Shown piece after piece: positions 42,001 to 57,093 of a stretch of 64,000 nt of DNA (the stretch's first letter is position 1; each line of letters opens with the position of its first letter). Source of the stretch: Talaromyces rugulosus (lineage: Eukaryota > Ascomycota > Eurotiomycetes > Eurotiales > Trichocomaceae); assembly GCF_013368755.1 (NCBI RefSeq), contig NC_049565.1, forward strand, positions 2,852,001-2,916,000, given 5' to 3'. The notes below the pieces were generated by a model. That model made no database searches. It worked only from the letters and a program-made list of their open reading frames with translations, and was not told the DNA's origin. The position numbers and the translations under genes were made by a program.

Positions 42001-43947
42001 CTACAACTCAGCAGGCGCCGAGTCGTTCAACAAAGCCATATCTACATGTGCGTGCTCCATCAAGTACGCTGCTCCTGTAGCCCCATACGGCCAACCACCG
42101 GATAGCTGTAGCCAAATCGACTGCATATCGATAAATCTGGCCGAGGTATCACTAGTAACAAACTTAACAGAGGCCGGCAGATTGGGTAAAGAGATGAGTG
42201 CCGGATATCCATCACCTGGTTGAGGACAAAAATCAGGTGCAGACTCGTCATCCGAATGCATTGAGATCGTGGCAGCTGGGCTGAGGATGGTTTCATTGAT
42301 GTCTCCGACGTAGGCCGCCTTATAGAGATCTTGCATGGCGTTGAGCGACAACTTCCATCGTTCAGCTGCCTTCCAGTGCGGCGTCCAGGACGATACCAAC
42401 GTATGGATAGTTTGAAAATAACTCTGGGACTTTTGTCGGAGAGAGTCGTCGGAGTAGACATTGTCTTGGGTGTATTGGAGCCACAGAAATACATTTGCTA
42501 CTATCAGAACGGAGGGGGCGACCCAGACAGCCTGCAAGCTCAGTTCGTTGCCGGTGCTGCCACCTTCAACAAGATAAGTGAGCACTTCGCCGAACTTGAT
42601 GGCATTGGATACACATGTATCTATCAGCAACGGTTCCCTGTGCAGGTATGACCAGCCAGCCGCATCCACTAGGTCATCGGGCTTGGTGAACAAGGTGAAA
42701 TGAGGTAGATAACACTGATGAGCGGCACAAGAGCCACTGAGAAGTAAGAGGTGCATAGCGACGAAAGAACTTCCCTTGCCAAGCTGACGTTGGGTATGAT
42801 AGTTCTCAGAGTTCCAGCGAAGGCTCGGGTGAAGCGAGTCAACCCAGGTACATAGTGCTTCGTGCCTGATGGAGAACATGCTGTGTGGGTCGGTAGGCGG
42901 GAATCTATCTAGCCGTCGACGAGAATACGTAGCGAAGTCGGCAAGATCACTCCACAGACAAACCGTTTTTATCAGATACGAACCCAGTCCCAGCTCTGAT
43001 GGGCGCTGTCGCGTGGCAATGTCACTCAACGTGACTCCTTTCGTCTCTTCCTGATAGGCTAGAGACATGTCCGTTCCTGGCAGCGGTATGCCGATGTTCT
43101 CTATATCGATGGTGCGATGCTTGGCAAGGAAGTATGCCAACACCCTATCAAACATGAGGCATGCCCAAAATGTCCGCCTACGGACTTCTTGAACCTTTAG
43201 GCTATGTTTCTGGTGAAAGTCTTTGTTGAGTCGCATTGCCTCGGCCATACGGATTGCCATGCCAGCAAATAGCCAGTGACGAGATCCAGAACCGTGCAAG
43301 AGCTCAGCCATGGCCAGGACAAGATTGCCTTGAATATGGGAAACTGGCATGTGGTCAACCAAGCGGGCGAGACACTGCGAGAAGGCCGTACTTACCAGTT
43401 GGGTCATCTGACGACTCCTTAGCTAAAGCTCGGGCTCTATGCAAGTACGCCTTGGATACCTGGCGGCCAGAGTCTAGTCCAAAGCAAGATTGCGCATCCT
43501 GTGGCTTTAGATATCGACCGCAGAGCGCAACAACGGCCGAAGACAGGAATGCATCTTTTTGACATTTTTGTTCAAAATCTGGCCAGTGGTCGAATGAGCA
43601 AAAGTCATTCGCGAAATGGCGCTCGAAGAAAATGTCAAGGCAAGTATGGATTCCCTTTTTGGCCTGCTCTAATGAACTGACAGCTGCTGACGATACTGGA
43701 GCTTCAGATGCGACATCAGGATTGTAACCGGGATCCGGCCGGGACCAAACACATGAGGCGTTTCTGGTTGCACAGCGCCGGCATCGTGGCCGGACCCCAT
43801 CGCACTTTATCTTACGGCGCCGGCTTCGTGAGATAGAGATTAGTCCAAGCTCGCATCGAGGAAAGCATTAGGGGGTTGGAGAATCCATGGTGTAGAGACT
43901 CACCATGTTTCACACGCTTGCGGGGTTCTGATAAATGTCCGACGCAT
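42001..43947 (-). CDS. Zn2Cys6 fungal-specific transcription factor next to the amino-sugar cluster
   Basis: Predicted nuclear regulator. Exons 43904-43947, 43396-43823 and 42001-43343 (introns of 80 and 52 nt) splice in frame to 604 residues. Splicing of intron 1 builds the zinc cluster: CETCRRRKIKC then DGVRPRCRRCATRNASC, i.e. C-x2-C-x6-C-x6-C-x2-C-x6-C, beginning only 11 residues after the start (MRRTFIRTPQA). The second splice joins KESSDDPT to VSHIQGNLVLAMAEL and continues the middle homology region (fungal_trans): SGSRHWLFAGMAIRMAEAMR, then RRRTFWACLMFDRVLAYFL. It is divergent from the NagB gene across about 1.1 kb, so it is the natural candidate for the cluster's own regulator; that role is inference. 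A few 3' codons may be missing (see the remnant at 41700-41990). Confidence 0.85.
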
Positions 43948-44249
43948 CGTTTTCGCGCATGGCCGAATGGAAAAGTAGCGTTCCCTCCGATTGGATAATT
44001 AGGTCCGACTTTGCATAGGCCATGCACTTCAACTGGCCCACCAAGTGACTAATTAATGCAGGTGTAGTAGTAGTCTCGTATGTAGATACAAAACTAGCCG
44101 CAGGCTTCATGCTTCGCCGGGGTATTGTTCTTCCGAGCGCCGTATATTGTTTATTTTATCATACAATTACACCGCTCGGTTTTTTGTCAAAAAAGCGTGT
44201 TACATAGTAATTTGTATGTATTCTACGTTGTAGATGTTTATAATCAAAA

Positions 44250-44504
44250 ATGCTTCCACGCAAAGAGCTAGACCTTACTATGCGAGCGCGCATATTTGCC
44301 CTCCACATGGATGCAAAGTATGGCTGTAAGCGTATACATCAGGCGCATATATCGACTACGAGCACTAGCTCAACGTGGAGCTGCACCTACTACCACTACC
44401 AATTAGATTCCACGTGGAATGGATATTGCACTCCGTACAGGGCCCAGGTTCGCGTGGTTAAGAAACGGGCGCTCGCGCAGCGCAAGCGAGGAGGATTATT
44501 TTAA
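44250..44504 (+). mobile_element. Degraded Tc1/mariner-type transposase N-terminus
   Basis: The first 30 codons read MLPRKELDLTMRARIFALHM and continue YGCKRIHQAH, resembling the helix-turn-helix start of fungal Tc1/mariner transposases (pattern PRKEL...RARI.AL.....YKRIH). After this the frame becomes low-complexity and loses resemblance; no DDE catalytic domain or terminal repeats were found. Interpreted as a relic inserted between the regulator and NagB. Confidence 0.4.
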
Positions 44505-44654
44505 TTTACGCCGGAAAACCCGTATAAGTCATTGTAATACTCCGTACTCCACCATTCATTATAATAAAGTTTACTGCTAGTATATCGTCCTTCAGACTAA
44601 GCATGTGGACTACCGCGGCTTTTCCGCTGATTGTGGCCGTTCAGATATACTATG

Positions 44655-44668
44655 GGCGGATAACCCGC
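44655..44668. promoter_or_regulatory. 14-mer shared with the MurQ/MFS promoter
   Basis: GGGCGGATAACCCG lies 361 nt upstream of the NagB start. The same 14 bases occur at 49094-49107 in the MFS-MurQ divergent promoter. It has partial dyad symmetry (GGG...CCC around CGGATAA). Regulatory role is inferred from position only. Confidence 0.35.
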
Positions 44669-44835
44669 ACAGAATCACGGGGGAGACTAAGCCCTAGCTC
44701 GAGGAATGTCCTGTCACCACGGCACATGATAGCTATCGAGTATGTTTGTGTTTGAACAACGGGCAACTGCAAGCCTTTATCGGATGCGTACTTCCAACGG
44801 ATGACGCTCCCCGGCCTGTTAATCCGAGTGATGTG

Positions 44836-44855
44836 CCGGAAAGCTGCTCTTTCGG
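44836..44855. promoter_or_regulatory. Candidate Zn2Cys6 site (CCG-N14-CGG, inverted)
   Basis: CCGGAAAGCTGCTCTTTCGG contains the inverted repeat CCG(n)AAAG / CTTTCGG, about 175 nt upstream of the NagB start. CCG/CGG triplet pairs are typical of binuclear zinc cluster sites. Confidence 0.3.
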
Positions 44856-45028
44856 AGCCAACGCTGTAACGTGTAAAGCTAGGGGCTTCTCTATTGGATT
44901 CGGATGTTCGGTTCATCTTAAGGGTGGCGGGAGAAAAATCGGACAAAAAAAGGTAAATTTTATATCTATATATCTATATATATATATCACTCTTTGTTGT
45001 CTCTGTTACCGATCTACCTTCGCCCGCC

Positions 45029-46125
45029 ATGAGACTCATTGTGCGTGACGATGCTATTTCGGCAGCACATTACGTCGCCAAATATATTCTTAAGCGCCTC
45101 AAGGAGTTCGAGCCCAGTCAGTCGCGGCAATTTGTGTTGGGTCTCCCAACGGGCAGTACTCCGATTGAGGTCTACAAAATCCTGACCAACAGCTACCAAA
45201 ATGGCGAGGTAAGGCCGCTAGATATGACAATGATTCTTAATTAGTAATGTATACAGGTCTCTTTCGAAAACGTGATAACTTTCAATATGGTGCGTGCTGA
45301 AGCTTTCCGTGTGCCATGATGTTCATACTAAATTCAATGGAGGACGAATATGTCGGTATCCCACGAGACCATCCGGAAAGCTATCACTCCTTCATGTGGC
45401 GTCACTTTTTCTCTCACATCAATATTCGACCGGAAAACGTTCATATACTCAATGGCAATGCCTCGAACCTTGAAGACGAGTGCCTCCAGTATGAAGCCGC
45501 GATACAGGCAGCGGGAGGCATTGATCTGTTCTTGACCGGAGTCGGCGAAGACGGCCATATTGCATTTAATGAGCCTGGATCCAGTTTAGTCAGCAGAACG
45601 CGCGTAAAGACTTTAGCATACGACACCATACGTGCCAACTCGCGCTTTTTCAGCAACGATATAAACCAGGTGCCTCGGATGGCGCTAACTGTTGGCGTAC
45701 AGACGGTCCTAGATGCACGAGAGGTGGTCACAATTGCGTTGGGTGCGCGCAAGGCTGTTGCATTGCAAAGGTGCATTGAAGGCGGCGTGAGCCATATGTG
45801 GACTCTTTCTAGTCTCCAATTACACAGGCACTCGATGATTGTTGCCGATGAAGATGCTACGCTTGAGCTGCAGGTCAAGACCGTCAAGGTAAGATGCTAA
45901 TTAACATAGATGGTATGGTCGTCGTTGACATGGGAACAGTATTTCAAATCTATTGAGCAAGTCGCCCTCGAGGAAGGCTTCGAACAAGCAATTTCTAAAC
46001 GACTCCGGAAAGCGCTCGGGGAGAAACATGCGTGTCATGCTCTCGCCAAATCAGCAGCCCCGGAGCCTGCATTGGACAACATGGGGTCGCGAATCCGCAA
46101 TAATAATATCACGTTTGTGGGATGA
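45029..46125 (+). CDS. nagB: Glucosamine-6-phosphate deaminase (NagB type)
   Basis: Cytosolic enzyme converting glucosamine-6-phosphate to fructose-6-phosphate and ammonia, the last step of amino-sugar catabolism. Exons 45029-45208, 45257-45289, 45343-45888 and 45940-46125 (introns of 48, 53 and 51 nt) give 314 residues, slightly longer than the 266-residue E. coli enzyme, with the extra at the C-terminus. Hallmarks: [14 protein letters not shown] (phosphate loop), [11 protein letters not shown] joined to [19 protein letters not shown], the catalytic segment [20 protein letters not shown] (Asp, His and Glu of the acid/base system), and [13 protein letters not shown]. It lies divergent to the Zn2Cys6 gene and convergent to the MFS gene, 3.2 kb from MurQ. 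It supplies the terminal reaction for GlcNAc-6-P released by MurQ after deacetylation. Confidence 0.93.
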
Positions 46126-46515
46126 CGGCCTTATTGTTGGTGGCTATCACATGTTCATATATAGATTTGTAATATATACAAGGAGAATATAGAAAAAACT
46201 AGTATCGTTGTCCCCAATTCTGCTCAATCAAACCTACGGATAACATTTGAAATAATGAGAGTTTTCAGTTAATAAATTTAGCAACTTGTATTCTATCTAA
46301 TTATACCACTTTCATCCGTGGTGAGATATTCAAATATATCATATACTCCACTCCGTATATAAATAATTTACTGCGATTTTAGTACTTTGAAGTAAATAAT
46401 GTTAAAATTAGTTTCCTAGGATATATTGAATGTGTACATATGACAGCTAGCTGCTTGAGTTCTCTGAAAATACCCAACCTTCGTACAGCGCCTTGTTACG
46501 TGGGCGGAGATGATC
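46126..46515. other. Convergent spacer, no gene seen
   Basis: AT-rich 3' flanks of the NagB and MFS genes with an ACTCCGTAT octamer near 46352; nothing else seen. Confidence 0.6.
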
Positions 46516-48574
46516 TTATTTAGTATCTCCATACGTTTCCGCCGATGGATCTTTCTCATCGGCTTCCAAGGCGCTAGATTTGGCATCCGATTCGCTTTGA
46601 ATAACATGCAAATCATATGTCCTTTTATCCTGCCACCACACCACTAATATCCAAAGAGCGAGGAGAACAGCGACTACAATCATAGCAATCGTGCCCTTTT
46701 TAAATCCCTGTGGTCCTAGTTAGTCCGCGAGTAATGGATTGAGGACGGAAAAGAAAAGACACTCACGGTAGCCGCGTCCGTTGCAGGGTAGAGAGCGATC
46801 CCCCAGAAGGCGTAGAGCACGGAGGAAGCACCTTTTAAAACCACATGAGTATATTAAACGAAGCTGAATACACGTTGACATACCATTCATGGAATAAAGA
46901 GTTATTGCCCGGGCAGCGTCATCGCCATCTCTGGCCAGTACCTTGTTGGCCCAAGTAAATACGACAGGCTGGATCAAGTATGCAGTTCCCGCCAAGTCTG
47001 TCAAAGTCAGCACAGTTTTCCAATGGGGGGAGGGGGGGTTGCTTACAGAAGGCAGCCATGATCGCGCCAGTACTCGCTGAGTTCCAGCACAGTAAGATCA
47101 CGCAAGATATGATTTGGATAGCACAGGCTAATATGCCATATGGGGCATGAACCTTGGTGGCATCAATGGCAACAGAAGTCAACAGAGTCAGGGCAATGCC
47201 TGATAACATGTCAGTCAGTCTTGGACCACAAAAAATAGCATGATGGAGAGAAGACAAACCGATCGCGGTGATGCCAAGAGGGTAAGTATTATTCTGGTCC
47301 ACAGTGAACAACTTGGATGCTTTCATCCAAAGAACCATACAGGTTTGAGAGGAGAAGGCCTCCAGGGCTCCCCCTAGCATCCAGAAAATATTGAAGATCC
47401 AGCTGCGAGTTCAGGTGAATACAGGTTCTGAAGAAAAATTGTGGGAGGCAGTGGGCCTTACAAGTTGGGGGTGAACAGAACTCTTTTAATGAGGCTCAGC
47501 CCGATATTGTGACCCTCGGGGTTCTTAGGTGGTAGACGGCTCAGCGCAAGCTGACGCTCATGAGGCTTCAGGTAAAAGGCCTCGGTAGACTCGGGCAGGT
47601 CGGGAAAGAAAACGAAACCAAAAATAGCTACTGGAATAGTGATGATTCCGTCAATGATGAACGACTATTGGGGTAGAAAGTTAGCCCATGGCACCATGTG
47701 AGCACATTTAGCACGAACCCATCTCCAACCAGCCAGGCCCGAGACTCCATCCATAGTATTCCAAATCGCCGTCATCATGAGGCCTGCAGCGAACGTCAGT
47801 TTGGTTTTCGGTACACTAAAAAAACGGCGGCTAACCCGCAAACATGGTCCCTGCCATCCCAGAAGCTTGGAAAAGTCCAATTCGCTTTCCCACTTCTGGG
47901 CCCTTGTACCAACTGCCGATGATGTACTGCGTGCCGCTGTAAGTCGACGCCTCAACGACCCCCTGGAAGAAGCGGACCGCTGCCAGCGATGAGAACCCGT
48001 TGCAGGCAGCGCAAACCATAGTCAAACACGACCAGACCACCGTCATCAAGGGGAACCAGATGCGTGGGGCGACCTTCTGGATGACAAGACCGTGCGGGAC
48101 TTGTCCAACAATGTCTGTTTTTTTCTCAGCAAATTGCTTTCCCTTTTGAGGACGTGGAGAAACTTACAGCCCACAGAGAGGATGGTGACTAGAAGGTTGT
48201 ACTGGGTGCCAGAGATGTTGATGTCTTCCTTCATGCCAGAAACGTAGGCATTTGCAAGAACAGCACGATCTACAGAATCGTCAGTGCATCTAGGCTCGAA
48301 ACCCATAGGCCACTTGAGAGTATGGACGTACCTAGATAGTTGAAGAAAAAGGCCAGGCAGCAATAGGTCTACCCGTGAGGTCAATACTTGTATGGTCGTT
48401 GGAAGGAATAGTATTGCTTACGAGAATGAAGAAGTCAATTTTCCGCAGAAGCTACAGGACGGTCAGTTACAATCCAGCTCCAGACTTCCCCAGACTACTA
48501 ACCTTTTGCTCCTCCACTGTTTCAGGTGCCTCTCCCCATACGGCAATGCGGAGGTTGTGTAGTTTAGCGCCCAT
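46516..48574 (-). CDS. MFS transporter, allantoate permease/ACS (Dal5-like) type
   Basis: Twelve-helix plasma-membrane symporter of the fungal anion:cation symporter group. The ATG at 48574 opens MGAKLHNLRIAVWGEAPETV. About eleven short introns follow (for example donors after EEQK, FFI and LSVG). Spliced pieces include LLRKIDFFILTYCCLAFFFN, YLDRAVLANAYVSGMKEDIN, GTQYNLLVTILSVGYIVGQV, PHGLVIQKVAPRIWFP, RFFQGVVEASTYSGTQYIIG and LYPATDAATGFKKGTIAMIV. The stop is at 46516-46518 after ETYGDTK. It shares a 717-bp divergent promoter with MurQ and is convergent with NagB, so its cargo is probably the sugar handled by the cluster (MurNAc, anhydro-MurNAc or a muropeptide). That assignment is inference; the family is known for allantoate, nicotinate, pantothenate and GlcNAc-like cargo. 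Exact exon ends of the middle part were not all resolved. Confidence 0.82.
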
Positions 48575-49291
48575 GATGGTAACTCTAGTACACTGGAGGT
48601 CTCAACAATGAGGGTTAATGGGTGGTGGACTCAGTCTTGGAGTGGGTGACAGCAGGATAGGCTGCTCAAATAGTAAGTATTGCTACCTATTTATCCTTTA
48701 TCTGTGGCATATGTAGTGCCATCAGTCTGATAAGATTCCTGGAGCGGGGATTCCGCGAGGCGAGAAGATATGGGGTCATATCTCTAGCGGTCTCGGCCGT
48801 GAAACCGATAGATTTCTCTCTACAGCATATCCCCGTTGCTAATACCTGGTTATTAGGCTTTTAGTGGTTAGATTAGTATTGTTTAAGCTAATACACGCGC
48901 TAAGTGGATATTTACGGAGAAGCATAGGATATTCAACCAATACATATAAAAGCCAAGACGCTAATGAGTCAATATCTTTCCGACAACCAAGGTTTATTTT
49001 AATTTATAATTGGTTTGTTGGTATTGGATGGGATTAGTGTAAATTATATTTTAGTGGTCTACAACGCCGACCATTCCGTCCCCTCGCGGGTCAGGGCGGA
49101 TAACCCGATAGACGTTATGGTTAGGCAGCGCGGTCCAAGTTCTGACAAGGACTAGGCTTAGCTTAGAGATTAACTAGCCCTATTCAATGTAGTTAAGCAC
49201 GTGTGTGTGTTATGAGTCTAACCGGTCCATCTATAATCATCCGCAACACCTCTTTCAGAACTGTTGCAAGTGGTGAAGACTCAACTTCACC
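48575..49291. other. Divergent MFS-MurQ promoter region
   Basis: 717 bp shared promoter, AT-rich in the middle. Contains CGG-N6-CCG (CGGTCTCGGCCG at about 48788) and the 14-mer shared with the NagB promoter. No gene seen. Confidence 0.6.
49094..49107. promoter_or_regulatory. 14-mer shared with the NagB promoter
   Basis: GGGCGGATAACCCG, identical to 44655-44668, lies about 185 nt upstream of the MurQ start and about 520 nt upstream of the MFS start. It is preceded by CGGGTCA, so CGGGT...ACCCG forms a longer dyad. Confidence 0.35.
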
Positions 49292-50618
49292 ATGCATTTG
49301 CTATCTGTAACTGAGGACGATGCTCCGGATCGACTTTACGATAGCCAACACAAAAAACAGCAGAATCACAGCACCGTTTCACCGCTAGACATTCGTCCCG
49401 ATATTGACTTGGATCTTGCCAGCCTCCAGACAGAACAGAGCAATTCCAAGACAACCAATATCGACACGGTATCATCTTTGGAGCTCTGTCGTAAGTGCTC
49501 AATCGTGAATACGTTTAATACTCTCTCTCTCTAAGAATTTTCACAGAAATAATTAACAATGAGGATGCAACTGTCGCCAGTGCTGTGCAGGCTTGCTTAC
49601 CGCAAGTGGCCTCTGCAATAGATACCATTGTCCCGCGTCTTTTAGCTGGCGGGCGAGTGGTGTACTCTGGAGCAGGGACGAGTGGAAGGTTGGCTGCTTA
49701 TTCTATCCCCGACACGCAAGTTCAAAGGCTAAGTTCCCGTGTAGGCTCGGTGTCCTTGATGCTTCTGAAATGTGAGGCCACACTGTTCGTTCTGCAAGAT
49801 TTTTGCCATTGACTAGTATTATTCATAGTCCTCCCACATTCTCAGCACCTCCTGGGCAGTTCATTGGCATGATTGCTGGCGGAGATTATGCTATTCGCAA
49901 TGCTGTAGAGGGTGCTGAAGATTCAGAAGCTATGGGCGCTACAGATCTCATGCAATTGTCTCCACCACTCAGGGAGACGGATGTTCTCATAGGAATTGCC
50001 TCGTCTGGAAGGACTCCTTACGTTCTAGGGGCTCTAAAGCACGCCCGCTCTGTCGGGGCTGCTACGGTCGGTCTGGCGTGCGTACAACCTAGCGCACTCA
50101 GGGGACTCTGTGACATCCTTATTGAATGCGTGACCGGCCCAGAGGTCGTAACTGGAAGCACAAGGCTAAAAGCAGGAACTGCAACCAAGATGGTGAGAAA
50201 TACGTACATTCTGACCCGGTGGAACAGCTGGCTAAACAGCGCGAGTATCAGATTTTGAACATGATATCGACTGGATCGCAGATCCGCATGGGGAAAACTT
50301 TTGGGAACCTGGTCAGTCTTTCCCAGCTGTGTTAGGCATGAGGCCGCATGTTAACAACAATAGATGGTCGACTTGAAAATGACAAACGAGAAGCTACGGG
50401 ATAGAGCTCGTCGCGTGGTGCGGATGGTGGTGCCCTCGACCGCAACGCTAGATGTTGGGCGAGAAGAAGTGCTCGACGAGGTCTTGGCTAAATGCGATGG
50501 CCTGGTCAAACTTAGCATTTTGGTAGCGACACTGGGGTGCTCTTGCGACGAAGGCCGATCCATTCTTGAAGCCTCGTCGGGGTCTTTGAAGCGGGCACTA
50601 CAAGTCCGTTCCGAATAA
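49292..50618 (+). CDS. murQ: N-acetylmuramic acid 6-phosphate etherase (MurQ-like, single SIS domain)
   Basis: Predicted to cleave the D-lactyl ether of MurNAc-6-phosphate, giving GlcNAc-6-phosphate and D-lactate. Six exons: 49292-49490, 49547-49688, 49745-49771, 49829-50192, 50252-50311 and 50364-50618; the sum divides by three and gives 348 residues. Spliced family motifs: GGRVVYSGAGTSGRLGVLDA, ASEIPPTFSAPP, GMIAGGDYAIRNAVEGAEDS (DASE and VEGAED carry the conserved acidic residues), GIASSGRTPYVLGALKHA, TGPEVVTGSTRLKAGTATKM, ILNMISTGSQIRMGKTFGNL and MVDLKMTNEKLRDRARRVV. The length and single SIS domain match bacterial MurQ rather than animal glucokinase regulator (two SIS domains, about 600 residues). 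A 50-residue N-terminal extension is extra. The gene is tandem with AnmK, 415 bp away. Confidence 0.93.
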
Positions 50619-51033
50619 TCATTCAAGATGGCATGTTATTCAATGTAATAGAGACTCTACTTTGTAATTGTTAGATCTTGTTTTATGATGGTATATCTCA
50701 CCAAAATCCACCTGCTAAAGAGAAGCATTGTCACATATTCTTGCTCCGTAGCAGAAGCGGAAAAGCCGCCTGTAGGGCAGATTAGATAGATTTCGCCACA
50801 AAAATACAAGAATATGACCACAGAACTATAATCCCCACCAACTTCCCTTTTTGGTAGGTAATTTTCAGGTCGATAATATGTGGGGCTAGTTATGTCTCTC
50901 CAATTAACTATCGCTCCGAAACGATGATAAGTACCGAATTCAACTCGGATGGATTAATATTTCCAGGTACAAAGCCCACCGTTATGGCATCTGAACACCT
51001 GAGGTCTTATCCAACATCAGAATTAATCCAGTT
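50619..51033. other. MurQ-AnmK spacer and AnmK promoter
   Basis: 415 bp, AT-rich. Contains GCGGAAAAGCCGC (50757-50769), a CGG-N5-CCG pair that could bind a Zn2Cys6 factor. No gene seen. Confidence 0.5.
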
Positions 51034-52470
51034 ATGGTCACCCTCAATGTCATCGGCCTGAATTGTGGGACAAGCATCGACGGTGAGCAACGCCACCCCT
51101 ACAATCTACTACTCCCTCACTAACGCTATGCTTAGGCATCGATGTTGCCCTCTGCCGAATCTCATCGGTGCCGGCGTCCGGTGATGTGAAGATAGAGCTG
51201 CTTTCGTATACCGAGATTGCGGTTGATCCCAGTCTCCGTGCGACAGTACTCCGTCTCTGTCGTCCTAACCAGGAGGACGCTGCCACCTCCATGGCCGAAG
51301 TCTGTGATCTCAACTTTGCACTTGGCCGGGAGTTTGCTCGGGCTGTTGAGAATTCTGGTATTGACCTCGAAAATGTCGATGTTATTGCTAGCCATGGCCA
51401 AACCTTGTGGCACCAACCTTTAGGCGAGCAGCGATCTACGCTACAGATGGCAGAGCCTGCTGTGATTGCCCAGAAGACTGGCAAGTACGTCAAGTTCGGA
51501 AAATAATCTCCATGGCTCGCCTCAGAATACTGACTGATGGATTAGAACGGTCGTCAGTGGCTTTCGAGTTGCTGAGTTGGCCGCTGGTCGTCAAGGAGCC
51601 CCCTTAGCTGGGTTCTTCGAACACGCACTGCTTTCCCACCCACAAGTGACACGAATTAGCCAGAACATTGGAGGGATAGGTATGCGAGATAGGTCAACCC
51701 ATCCGTGGATACCTTTATTAACACGCATGCGCACAGGCAATGCAACTATTCTTCCCGCAACCAGCAACATCCAGTCGACGTACCTGGCTTTTGACACGGG
51801 CCCAGGGAATGTCTTCATCGACGCTGCAATGCGCATCCTCACGAATGGGGAACAACATTACGATCACAATGGTGCTCTTGGTGCAAAAGGCGAGGCTGAC
51901 ATTGATGGCGCCGTTGTTGATGACTACCTGACCAACGAGCCGTACTTTCAACAAAAGCCACCAAAGACTACAGGACGGGAGCTATTCTCCGACGATGTCG
52001 CTCGTTCGATAGTAACAAAAATGAAAAGCGCAGGAAAGTCCCCAGAGGCAATTATTGCCACTATCACTCGCATCACGGCCGAGTCGATCGTCCGTGCCTA
52101 CGAGCAGTTCGTTGTTCCTCTCCTTGAGGGCGATGGAATCATTGACGAGATCTATATATGTGGAGGCGGGGCTTACAACCCCAATATCAAGAAGCATATT
52201 CAATCTCGCCTACCAAAGAGTCGGGTCTCGAATCTCGATGCTGCACCCAGCGAGTTAGACCCGAGCGCAAAAGAGGCTATCCTGTTTGCGCTCCTAGGGT
52301 TCCTTGCTATCTGTGGGCGTACAGTCCCGGTAGCAGCAGACGCTGAGAGTACACACTCAGCCATCATGGGAGTAGTGACGCCGGGACAGAACTATCATGA
52401 CGTTTTACAAAGAGTGGTCGGGAATCCTGACTTCCTAAGCAAACTCGTCCTCGGAAGGGTCATAATGTGA
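51034..52470 (+). CDS. anmK: Anhydro-N-acetylmuramic acid kinase (AnmK-like)
   Basis: Predicted ATP-dependent kinase that opens the 1,6-anhydro ring of anhydro-MurNAc and phosphorylates it to MurNAc-6-phosphate, the substrate of MurQ. Exons 51034-51082, 51136-51484, 51546-51679 and 51737-52470 (introns of 53, 61 and 57 nt) sum to 421 residues; bacterial AnmK has about 370. Motifs: GLNCGTSIDGIDVALCRI (bacterial MSGTSxDGxDV, here with NC in place of MS), VIASHGQTLWHQPLG, GRQGAPLAGFFEHALLSHP, ISQNIGGIGNATILPA, AFDTGPGNVFIDAAMRILT (the Asp is the catalytic base), PYFQQKPPKTTGRELF and IDEIYICGGGAYNPNIKKHI. The extra length is mostly in small loops and the C-terminus. Such genes are often labelled UPF0075 in fungi. 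Confidence 0.93.
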
Positions 52471-54892
52471 CCGTCTTAGTGGTAGCTTTAGACACCTTGA
52501 ATTATTATACAGAACCCAGTCTCCTCGGTCTTGTAGCATTATGTCTTGAGTAATCAAGACTAAATTTACTCGTAGAAGCCAATAATTAGAGAAATCGACA
52601 GTATCCATCTCCCGCCCTCTGCTATGTGGGTCGAAGTTGGATACACAATCCAGATACAAAACGTAGCATAGCTGGTCCACTCGCTACAACGCCCATGAAC
52701 CCCTAGTCAGGGGAAAGTTCAGATGGGTTGGGGTACTTGTGGAGCTTACCACGCGAGACCGCGAAGCCGGAGAACTGTGTCGGGTATCCCGATGATAGCA
52801 CGTCTTGGAATATTAGGTCCTATATGTAGCGACACGGAAAACCCGTCGGCCATCTTATCATACACGGAATCGAGGAGACTGTGCGGACTCATTCTACAGC
52901 TTTATTATCTTCATATCGGGAAAAAGATCCCGTTTACATGCCGGTCGCTTTCGTAACTTTGAATGGAGGCAAATTTTAGGCCCTGTCTAGCAAGTCGTCC
53001 ACCCGAATGTCTGCGTGGGAACCGATCTCTATCCTTAGTTAATATCTTCCAACCAGAATCAATATCTAGCTTGACGGGATAGCACACACTGACAATACCA
53101 GCCTAAGAGACCCATCTCTGTCCGCCTTGCCCCGTCATTTAGATTCCTGGAAGCAACCTCCCCGACCTCATTCTACACTATACCCCGGTATCCACTATGG
53201 GGTAATGCAGAAATATCAGACGAGTTGACAGTTGCACGGCCAAGAACGAGACAGTAGCGGAAATCCGCAACGTTGGTAGTCAATATGCTTTAAGACACGA
53301 ATAAACCTTGGCTTTCTTTCTTCAGTACTCTAACCCGCCGTTTATACTTTAATTTCATGCTATCCGGCAGCGTTAAAGTTCTCAAAATGATTTAGAAGAG
53401 GGTGGTAAGATATAACCCGAACATCGTATTTAGGGTTTTGACACTGGTATGACTTGGTGCGGAGGATAAACGAAACTAATGCCACCCAGTTGTTTCCAGT
53501 AAGAGCGCCAAGTAACACTATAAGGCAAATAAGAAACAAGTTCTTTTTAATAATCATTATTCTAGTTATCATTTTTCAGTTAATAAAATTCCTTTTGTTT
53601 TTTCACGTCATCAAACAAAAGTGAAAGTCGCAAAACCGAAGACAAACAAAGATAAGTAAAATCATTCCTTATTATTTACTTATTATAACCGGAAAGCACT
53701 ATCAGTATGTCAATATGTAGTGTAAGTACCAATCTATGTGATAACAGGTTGATTATAAAATATATCGGAGATCTTACGCTATGTAGTAGTTCATAGTCAA
53801 TACCATCAAAGTATCTAGATATGGTCAATTTGAATACGATATTAGGTACACTTAGCACAAAAGCCTGTCACCGTATATTCTTTGGTTTATATCCTATATC
53901 GATGACGCTTTGGTTCTTGCTTCCATTCTTCATATGTCTCGTTGTAATCCTCATAGCATGTCACGTCATCTGTAAGACTACTAGTCTCAACCTAATACTC
54001 GATGTGGCCTCTATAGCTAAACCACCGATTATTAACTAAGGCGGTAAATAAATAAATATGGGTGCGATGCTCATACCTATCTATCTTATTCTTTTCACCT
54101 CTAAGCCTCATCGGCTTAGCCTTGCCAGCTCAATACAACCCGGCCCCTAAAATGCTCGTCCGACTGACCAATGATAACCACCCAACCAAACCCATGCAAT
54201 AATAAAATTACTCTGCTGAAAACTAATTACCTATAGTTTCAACTGTTACTCACTAGATATGAGCGCTTTATGATAAGCTGCACACTTTGATCGGAAGACC
54301 TCTATCCTCTATGTTTTTAATACACAGAAATAACACAGCTTGCGTATTAAGCTTATGTAAATAACAGGATGATTTCCTCACACAGCGAGTTCAAGATGCT
54401 CGCTAATTTGTTTTGGACTCGGTTTAGCTCACGTAGTGTATTCATTTCAGATGTTTCAGAGGCAACAGTGTTATCTCAGCTACTAGTCTGTTTCGGCCTC
54501 TGAAAGTCCCGCAAGTTTGCATATCACCCCCTTTTTAAGGCCATATATGCGGGCGACATATTATCACGTCAGACTCAGCCTCGGCCCCGTTTCTATAATC
54601 GCACTAAGAAGTCAATCTCCCCAGCCGTATAAGCTTAGAGCCGCATCCGACATGGATCATTTATTTTGTATCATTTTTCTATACGACTCCCGGCCCTTCC
54701 CTCAAAAAAATCCAGTTTTTTAATCACGCTTAATAGCCTCTTGAGGTGATGACCATCCGCCAGGCCAAGATAACATGACACATGAGAGCCACCACATGCA
54801 AGCACTCGGGGAGGACCGGGTTTTACTTATAGGCAAGCGAAGACAATAAGAATGGAAATAAATCAAATACTCAGGTGAAGGGCTCCATTGGT
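52471..54892. other. AT-rich spacer, no intact gene (2.4 kb)
   Basis: AT-rich sequence with many TA and TAT steps, compatible with old repeat-induced mutation. No domain seen on either strand. Confidence 0.5.
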
Positions 54893-56862: not shown

Positions 56863-57093
56863 CTATTGGACTAGAAAACAGAAGCCATCATGCAAGATGT
56901 CATCGACACGGGATTCACGTCCTCGCAAACAGTAATCGCTATTCTACATCATTTACGACACATTGATCGATCCGACCGAGTTGTTCTGCTGAAGAGCGGG
57001 CAGATTGTGGAATGTGATAGTCCCCGAGTCTTGCTTGCGCGGGACTCGGAGTTCCAGAAACTGTTCATGACGTTGGAAAGCAGTGAAAGTTGA
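56863..57093 (+). pseudogene. Truncated ABC transporter, C-terminal nucleotide-binding-domain remnant
   Basis: Encodes TEAIMQDVIDTGFTSSQTVI, then AILHHLRHIDRSDRVVLLKS and GQIVECDSPRVLLARDSEFQ. This is the segment after Walker B of an ABCC-type half (H-loop region, 'IVE.DSP..LL') ending with a natural C-terminus. A TAG stands just upstream (RLLD-stop-KTEAIMQ), and no Walker A, signature or membrane domain precedes it. Only the tail of an ABC transporter remains. Confidence 0.65.

Follow-up and report, generated by a model that had tools for sequence, protein, structure and literature searches.

We analyzed a stretch of 64,000 nucleotides from the ascomycete Talaromyces rugulosus (contig NC_049565.1, positions 2,852,001 to 2,916,000; hereafter, the window), in which five intact, intron-bearing genes at positions 42001-52470 probably constitute a catabolic regulon that is induced by its substrate and serves the breakdown of muramic-acid sugars from bacteria. 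An earlier note, made from the letters of this DNA, had claimed genes for AnmK, MurQ, NagB, an MFS transporter, and a Zn2Cys6 regulator within 10.5 kb and had read them as a salvage cluster for sugars of bacterial walls. We found all five at the coordinates it gave, and all can be spliced without stops:

Exons 42001-43328, 43396-43823, and 43904-43947, minus strand: Zn2Cys6 transcription factor gene; 599 amino acids; over the Pfam cut-offs for Zn_clus and Fungal_trans
45029-46125, plus strand: NagB (glucosamine-6-phosphate deaminase) gene; 4 exons, 314 amino acids; called from TIGR00502 and PDB 1ne7
46516-48574, minus strand: MFS transporter gene; 12 exons, 484 amino acids; MFS_1 over the Pfam cut-off
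49292-50618, plus strand: MurQ gene; five introns, 348 amino acids; called from TIGR00274, PDB 1nri/4lzj/4s12, and conserved residues
Exons 51034-51082, 51136-51484, 51546-51679, and 51737-52470, plus strand: AnmK-family kinase gene; 421 amino acids; called from PF03702, clade, and residues

Exons and splice sites were chosen by hand from the sequence, and the models are predicted ones. In all five, the introns run GT..AG and measure 48 to 80 nucleotides, and the joined frames are uninterrupted. The order and strands are Zn2Cys6 (-), NagB (+), MFS (-), MurQ (+), and AnmK (+), and the cluster lies on C5, a contig of 5.3 Mb in an assembly of 35.76 Mb in six contigs whose genes and introns are fungal in character. 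We rejected bacterial contamination as a source of these genes, because MurQ has five introns and AnmK has three, and because of their location in the 5.3-Mb contig. The GC fraction of the cluster genes (0.49 to 0.52, versus 0.49 for the window) does not indicate a recent foreign origin.

Shared promoter repeats and recurrent linkage

Co-regulation of the genes had been suggested from two divergent promoters, regulator/NagB and MFS/MurQ. Both exist, a third promoter belongs to AnmK alone, and all three contain CGG-N5-CCG inverted repeats, an arrangement characteristic of Zn2Cys6 dimers. The repeats, listed without strand, are as follows:

44512-44522: CGG-N5-CCG repeat CGGAAAACCCG, regulator/NagB promoter
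44616-44626: CGG-N5-CCG repeat CGGCTTTTCCG (CGGAAAAGCCG on the opposite strand), regulator/NagB promoter; within a 14-mer common to the AnmK promoter
44657-44667: CGG-N5-CCG repeat CGGATAACCCG, regulator/NagB promoter; within a 13-mer present twice in the genome
48745-48755: CGG-N5-CCG repeat CGGGGATTCCG, MFS/MurQ divergent promoter
49097-49107: CGG-N5-CCG repeat CGGATAACCCG, MFS/MurQ promoter; within the 13-mer's other genomic copy
50758-50768: CGG-N5-CCG repeat CGGAAAAGCCG, AnmK promoter

The regulator/NagB promoter contains three of these repeats, the MFS/MurQ promoter two, and the AnmK promoter one, for a total of six in 2213 bp. Dinucleotide shuffles of the promoters had a mean of 0.32 sites and a maximum of 4, with at least six sites in 0 of 2000 and one site in every promoter in 0 of 2000; since the motif had been spotted by eye beforehand, the shuffles are not an entirely independent test. 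The remaining window holds 17 such repeats in 61.8 kb, and 20 other spacings of CGG and CCG (from 0 to 20) together account for 11 in the same promoters.

Longer words are also shared. The 13-mer GGCGGATAACCCG occurs twice in 35.8 Mb, in the regulator/NagB and MFS/MurQ promoters (reversed control, 0), and a 14-mer is common to these same two promoters, where any shared 14-mer arose in 4 of 1000 simulated pairs. Another 14-mer, which contains CGGAAAAGCCG, is common to the regulator/NagB and AnmK promoters. With two or fewer mismatches, GCGGATAACCCG had 10 matches in the window versus a mean of 3.8, and at least 10 were reached in 0 of 100 shuffles. The looser word GCGGAWAASCCG had 19 genomic matches, four of them in the cluster; its reversed control also had 19, so this word is not rare in itself. 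Taken together, the promoter sequences strongly suggest co-regulation of the five genes.

Two further CGG-N5-CCG repeats, at 52781 and 52835, lie 3' of AnmK beside no evident gene, and they perhaps mark the promoter of a lost one. They raised the possibility of a sixth cluster gene, which we rejected: a scan of stop-to-stop frames within 52.5-54.8 kb, a stretch that was not family-searched, revealed no sixth gene, the longest frame being 85 amino acids. Farther along, a short frame at 56875-57093 resembles, by eye, the end of an ABC transporter ATPase and is apparently a relic.

We also examined whether the arrangement recurs in other fungi, reading linkage by eye from locus tags and from contigs of equal size in protein match lists. 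These lists comprised the best 120 matches with near-identical proteins collapsed, so absence from them is weak evidence. The synteny that the earlier note had proposed as a check does recur, for MurQ with AnmK and in some species for NagB as well. Among the matches listed, MurQ and a cluster-type AnmK share one contig in at least eight other species (F. nematophilum, F. lateritium, F. oligoseptatum, Dactylonectria macrodidyma, Clonostachys rosea, Penicillium riverlandense, Cephalotrichum gorgonifer, and the basidiomycete Naematelia encephala). Their tags are consecutive in F. nematophilum (MurQ 013621, AnmK 013622), F. lateritium (AnmK 006654, MurQ 006655), and F. oligoseptatum (AnmK 004235, MurQ 004236); for the other five species, the linkage is contig sharing only. 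NagB is on the MurQ contig in at least five species among the matches listed (F. nematophilum, F. lateritium, F. ambrosium, F. keratoplasticum, and Mariannaea). In F. nematophilum (NagB 013619) and F. lateritium (NagB 006657), it is two tags from MurQ, with one gene between them (ACJ41O_013620 and ACHAPJ_006656, respectively), which is the place of the MFS gene in the window. In F. decemcellulare and Paramyrothecium, the MurQ and AnmK domains are found in one predicted protein, which we take for merged gene calls. We consider both the cluster and its recurrence to be well supported.

Separately, one metagenomic protein (P0114) is an AnmK-MurQ single reading frame, with AnmK first and its start cut off.

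The cluster kinase and levoglucosan kinase

The kinase may be an AnmK, as first read, or it may instead be a levoglucosan kinase (LGK) or a kinase of some other anhydrosugar, whose position beside MurQ and NagB would be incidental. The earlier note did not take into account that the fungal AnmK family includes LGKs. We considered LGK identity first, on the basis of structure matches: the closest solved relatives of the kinase are LGKs (E about 1e-102), compared to about 1e-44 for bacterial AnmK. Because it matches the Lipomyces LGK structures so much better than bacterial AnmK, we tested its membership in the LGK group. The kinase passes PF03702 (245.3 bits versus a cut-off of 24) but falls under the cut-off in all 14 NCBIfam AnmK models that it matched, which are curated for bacteria and archaea, the best score being 363 bits versus 387. 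The family calls of the earlier note hold in Pfam for all five genes and in NCBIfam for NagB and MurQ, but not in the NCBIfam AnmK models. Fungal AnmK/LGK genes have, in addition, been expressed in yeast for levoglucosan use; in the excerpted part of that report, one of six, from Rhodotorula toruloides, was clearly active (10.65 U/mg versus 1.25 for the control), and the other five gave 1.67 to 2.98 U/mg (PMC9476349).

The genome contains two further AnmK-family members, one on C4 and one on C1. The C4 protein is 77% identical to the LGK of Lipomyces starkeyi (PDB 4YH5), while the window AnmK is 44% identical to Lipomyces LGK and 46% identical to the C4 protein. This genome therefore has a separate LGK orthologue, on a different contig from MurQ. 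We also built an AnmK/LGK tree of 44 proteins, in which nine LGK rows, including the C4 protein, form one clade (support 100/100). Its sister comprises 23 fungal rows including the window AnmK (96/83), the two jointly form one clade (100/100), and the window AnmK falls outside the LGK clade.

Two loci deserve mention here. The LGK orthologue on C4 (C4:5106500-5116400, the likely LGK locus) adjoins, by eye, a sugar-porter MFS gene. The C1 protein (C1:3784000-3793900) is a third, divergent AnmK-type protein, 410 amino acids long from its ATG and 27 to 32% identical to the four others compared, with a sugar porter nearby.

We compared residues across 17 cluster-type, 9 LGK, and 11 bacterial rows, leaving out the C1 protein and six of the 23 fungal rows (Saitoella, Yamadazyma, Kuraishia, Talaromyces, and two merged gene calls). 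The two fungal types are fixed for different residues in 46 columns; the bacterial rows agree with the cluster type in 14 of these and with LGK in 4, and the remaining 28 favor neither. Four of the 14 are clustered and correspond to H109, P111, T118, and Q120 in the window AnmK. LGK has L, S, A (once V), and T at these positions (L119, S121, A131, and T133 in the Lipomyces starkeyi protein), whereas H and Q are found in 11 of 11 bacterial AnmK rows and P and T in 10 of 11, and the LGK-type LxS and ALT residues are absent from the window AnmK. Among the best 120 AnmK matches, HxP occurs with TLQ in 33, LxS with ALT in 60, and the crossed combinations in none; of the remaining 27, 19 have neither pattern and 8 have one pattern or a variant. 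The aspartate of the DTGPGN motif, which we take to be catalytic in AnmK, is kept as D197. On the other hand, the window AnmK has G where LGK and 9 of 11 bacterial rows have the D of the DFR motif; the other two bacterial rows have N.

Given that LGK has its own orthologue in this genome, that the cluster clade has bacterial AnmK residues and lacks those of LGK, and that linkage to MurQ recurs in the other species listed above, we now judge it unlikely that the cluster kinase is an LGK. The simplest reading of the residues is that the cluster-type AnmK kept an ancestral AnmK pocket and that LGK changed.

A proposed route for bacterial wall sugars

If the five genes form a regulon for muramic-acid sugars, the MFS transporter would import a free sugar of the N-acetylmuramic acid (MurNAc) type. 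An anionic sugar is a fair guess for its cargo, since the only solved relatives found are D-galactonate symporter chains and the best NCBIfam match is a D-galactonate symporter subfamily, albeit below the cut-off (126 bits versus 395). The kinase, judging by its clade and residues, would then open and phosphorylate 1,6-anhydro-MurNAc to give MurNAc-6-phosphate, whose D-lactyl ether MurQ would cut, releasing N-acetylglucosamine (GlcNAc)-6-phosphate and D-lactate. A NagA encoded elsewhere in the genome would deacetylate GlcNAc-6-phosphate, and the cluster NagB would convert glucosamine-6-phosphate to fructose-6-phosphate and ammonium. The latter step is suggested by family: NagB is over the Pfam Glucosamine_iso cut-off, passes the NCBIfam equivalog TIGR00502 (384.4 bits versus a cut-off of 236.9), and matches PDB 1ne7 at E 9.5e-107. 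The Zn2Cys6 protein would bind CGG-N5-CCG in all three promoters, its own included, switching the set on jointly. The use is most likely nutritional, with bacterial walls or shed fragments supplying carbon and nitrogen.

Alternatively, the set may serve not feeding but the sensing of bacteria or the removal of their sugar signals. Bacterial peptidoglycan reportedly triggers hyphal growth in Candida albicans, and the cluster does have a dedicated regulator. However, the set includes a NagB that would yield fructose-6-phosphate and ammonium, and a transporter with three enzymes resembles a catabolic route, so we consider a role in sensing quite unlikely.

That MurQ is a sugar-kinase regulator like animal GKRP and not an etherase, as the name "glucokinase regulator" given by sources to some fungal MurQ-family members and its match to Pfam GKRP_SIS_N could suggest, is highly improbable, because the protein has the length of a MurQ, passes the NCBIfam MurNAc-6-phosphate etherase model TIGR00274 (347.8 bits versus a cut-off of 302), matches MurQ structures at E about 3e-76 versus 1e-20 or weaker for GKRP, and keeps the two glutamates that we take to be catalytic in Escherichia coli MurQ (E83 and E114) as E122 and E153, which are invariant across 16 aligned MurQs. 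We infer that MurQ is a MurNAc-6-phosphate etherase. It is over the Pfam cut-offs for GKRP_SIS_N and SIS and just below that for SIS_2, and the strong MurQ matches in the genome are exons of this gene only, a fourth match on C5 being weak (23 bits, in the SIS part). To our knowledge, a peptidoglycan-free fungus has no ordinary substrate for MurQ.

AnmK, MurQ, and NagB had been described as consecutive or near-consecutive steps. All three are present, but the NagA step, which that description left unconsidered, is elsewhere in the genome. NagA-like genes are found at two loci, C1:4.045 Mb and C1:5.647 Mb, the latter within a GlcNAc locus (C1:5.64-5.65 Mb) that also has Ngt1-like (by eye) and NagB-like genes. 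Also encoded outside the cluster are a GH25 lysozyme, an NlpC/P60 peptidase whose frame starts with an apparent signal peptide, and proteins of the FAD-oxidase_C family, a family that includes D-lactate dehydrogenases.

Several observations count against a dedicated wall-sugar regulon, beyond the prior sighting of the promoter motif and, for the kinase, the NCBIfam scores, the closeness to solved LGKs, and the G in the DFR motif. The recurrence check covered three of the five genes, MurQ, AnmK, and NagB. In Mariannaea, AnmK is on a different contig from MurQ; Sporothrix and Niveomyces have MurQ with cluster-type AnmK absent among the matches listed; and the MurQs of Purpureocillium, Beauveria, and Aspergillus nidulans belong to another branch. 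The NagA step lies outside the cluster, and at both NagA-like loci the individual exons score under the family cut-off. Finally, a genome-wide six-frame search without introns, which can miss a many-exon gene, found neither Amidase_2 nor a PF01869 (MurK-type) kinase. There is therefore no evident enzyme to strip peptide from muropeptides and no evident kinase for plain MurNAc, the sugar expected at reducing ends after lysozyme digestion, and for this reason the enzyme set is better suited to anhydro-MurNAc shed by bacteria than to MurNAc produced by lysozyme. The recurrent linkage, the common promoter repeats, and the AnmK residues are all in favor of the salvage reading with which the earlier note began.

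Other fungi may have a route for MurNAc itself, via MurQ and a MurK-like kinase domain. Beauveria P0040 is a single protein that combines MurQ with a MurK/NAGK-like domain matching the MurNAc/GlcNAc kinase 8zo3 (E 1e-11), and in A. nidulans P0041 and metagenomic P0045, a similar BadF/MurK-like motif starts after MurQ.

We noted several additional genes of these families. The NagA-like gene outside the GlcNAc locus (C1:4040000-4049900) is near a sugar-porter MFS gene by eye. A third NagB-like gene (C3:2153000-2162900), whose frame seems shortened, may belong to another amino-sugar cluster; by eye, its neighbors are a hexokinase, an amino-acid permease, and a Zn2Cys6-type gene. The NlpC/P60 peptidase gene (C5 match 5218455-5218775) adjoins a sialidase-like frame by eye. 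The top NagB match (P0241) is a 451-amino-acid protein in a Tegillarca granosa (clam) record, and, at 54% identity, its score points to two NagB copies.

Origin of fungal MurQ and comparison with known systems

By their names, the 28 fungal MurQs in the sample come from Ascomycota and Basidiomycota; they form one clade (100/100) with respect to 87 bacterial or metagenomic rows, in a tree whose rows were picked by similarity, such that further lineages could change the single-clade result. The rows with which this clade groups are mostly from Planctomycetota and Chloroflexota, and the fork has support of 49/73. Since the sampled fungal MurQs form one clade, a single ancient gain from bacteria followed by many losses is a fair inference, perhaps with transfer between fungi, as Penicillium riverlandense stands among Sordariomycetes in both the AnmK and MurQ trees. 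LGK, for its part, looks to be derived from an AnmK lineage.

These elements can be joined into a broader proposal, to which we give somewhat less than even credence: fungi would have gained a bacterial MurQ once and would possess dedicated, regulator-controlled wall-sugar machinery of two kinds, one acting on anhydro-MurNAc through MurQ and a linked AnmK and the other on MurNAc through MurQ fused to a MurK-like kinase, and LGK would be an offshoot of a wall-salvage AnmK that lost the residues for MurNAc side groups. If this is true, a eukaryote has a route for salvaging bacterial walls, organized as an inducible gene cluster; the consumption of bacteria by fungi becomes a genetic trait that can be tested in soil, plant, and insect habitats; and LGK is given an origin. 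It would also matter for soil-carbon studies that trace bacterial remains by their muramic acid, and a Zn2Cys6 regulator specific for its inducer would lend itself to use as a sensor for a bacterial wall sugar.

Among the titles listed from the open-access literature searched, none dealt with MurNAc pathways in fungi or with this cluster, and subscription journals were mostly outside that scope, so novelty is unproven. In excerpts of related papers, putative AnmK genes are annotated in A. nidulans and Ophiostoma (in the latter, higher in mycelium) and also listed in an Epichloe gene table; a Monascus murQ is placed under chitin synthesis; and, in Naegleria, AnmK and a glucokinase-regulator homologue are linked to digestion of bacterial walls. 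The related literature also includes a review of muropeptides, likewise seen as an excerpt.

The cluster has a close parallel in bacterial salvage of MurNAc and anhydro-MurNAc (in E. coli, AnmK, MurQ-MurP, NagA, and NagB), with which it shares the same kinase, etherase, and deaminase families and the MurQ glutamates. In 10 of the 80 bacterial murQ loci examined (up to 6 kb on each side), anmK is near murQ. The fungal genes differ in having introns, an MFS transporter in place of E. coli MurP, and a Zn2Cys6 protein in place of MurR, and a fungus cannot be recycling its own wall by this route.

Fungal GlcNAc catabolic clusters, known from Candida and Trichoderma, are likewise sets of amino-sugar catabolism genes ending in NagB, and this genome also has such a locus (on C1), whereas MurQ and its neighboring AnmK sit on C5 beside a transporter of a different type. 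The fungal MurQs associated with a BadF-type kinase domain are also related, in that A. nidulans P0041 and Beauveria P0044 fall inside the same fungal MurQ clade; they differ in that, in Beauveria P0040, MurQ is fused to the MurK/NAGK-like domain. A murQ transferred from bacteria has also been kept and expressed in another eukaryotic lineage, the Camponotini ants, although in the excerpted part of that report it is discussed as antibacterial defence and not as part of a catabolic cluster (PMC13320244).

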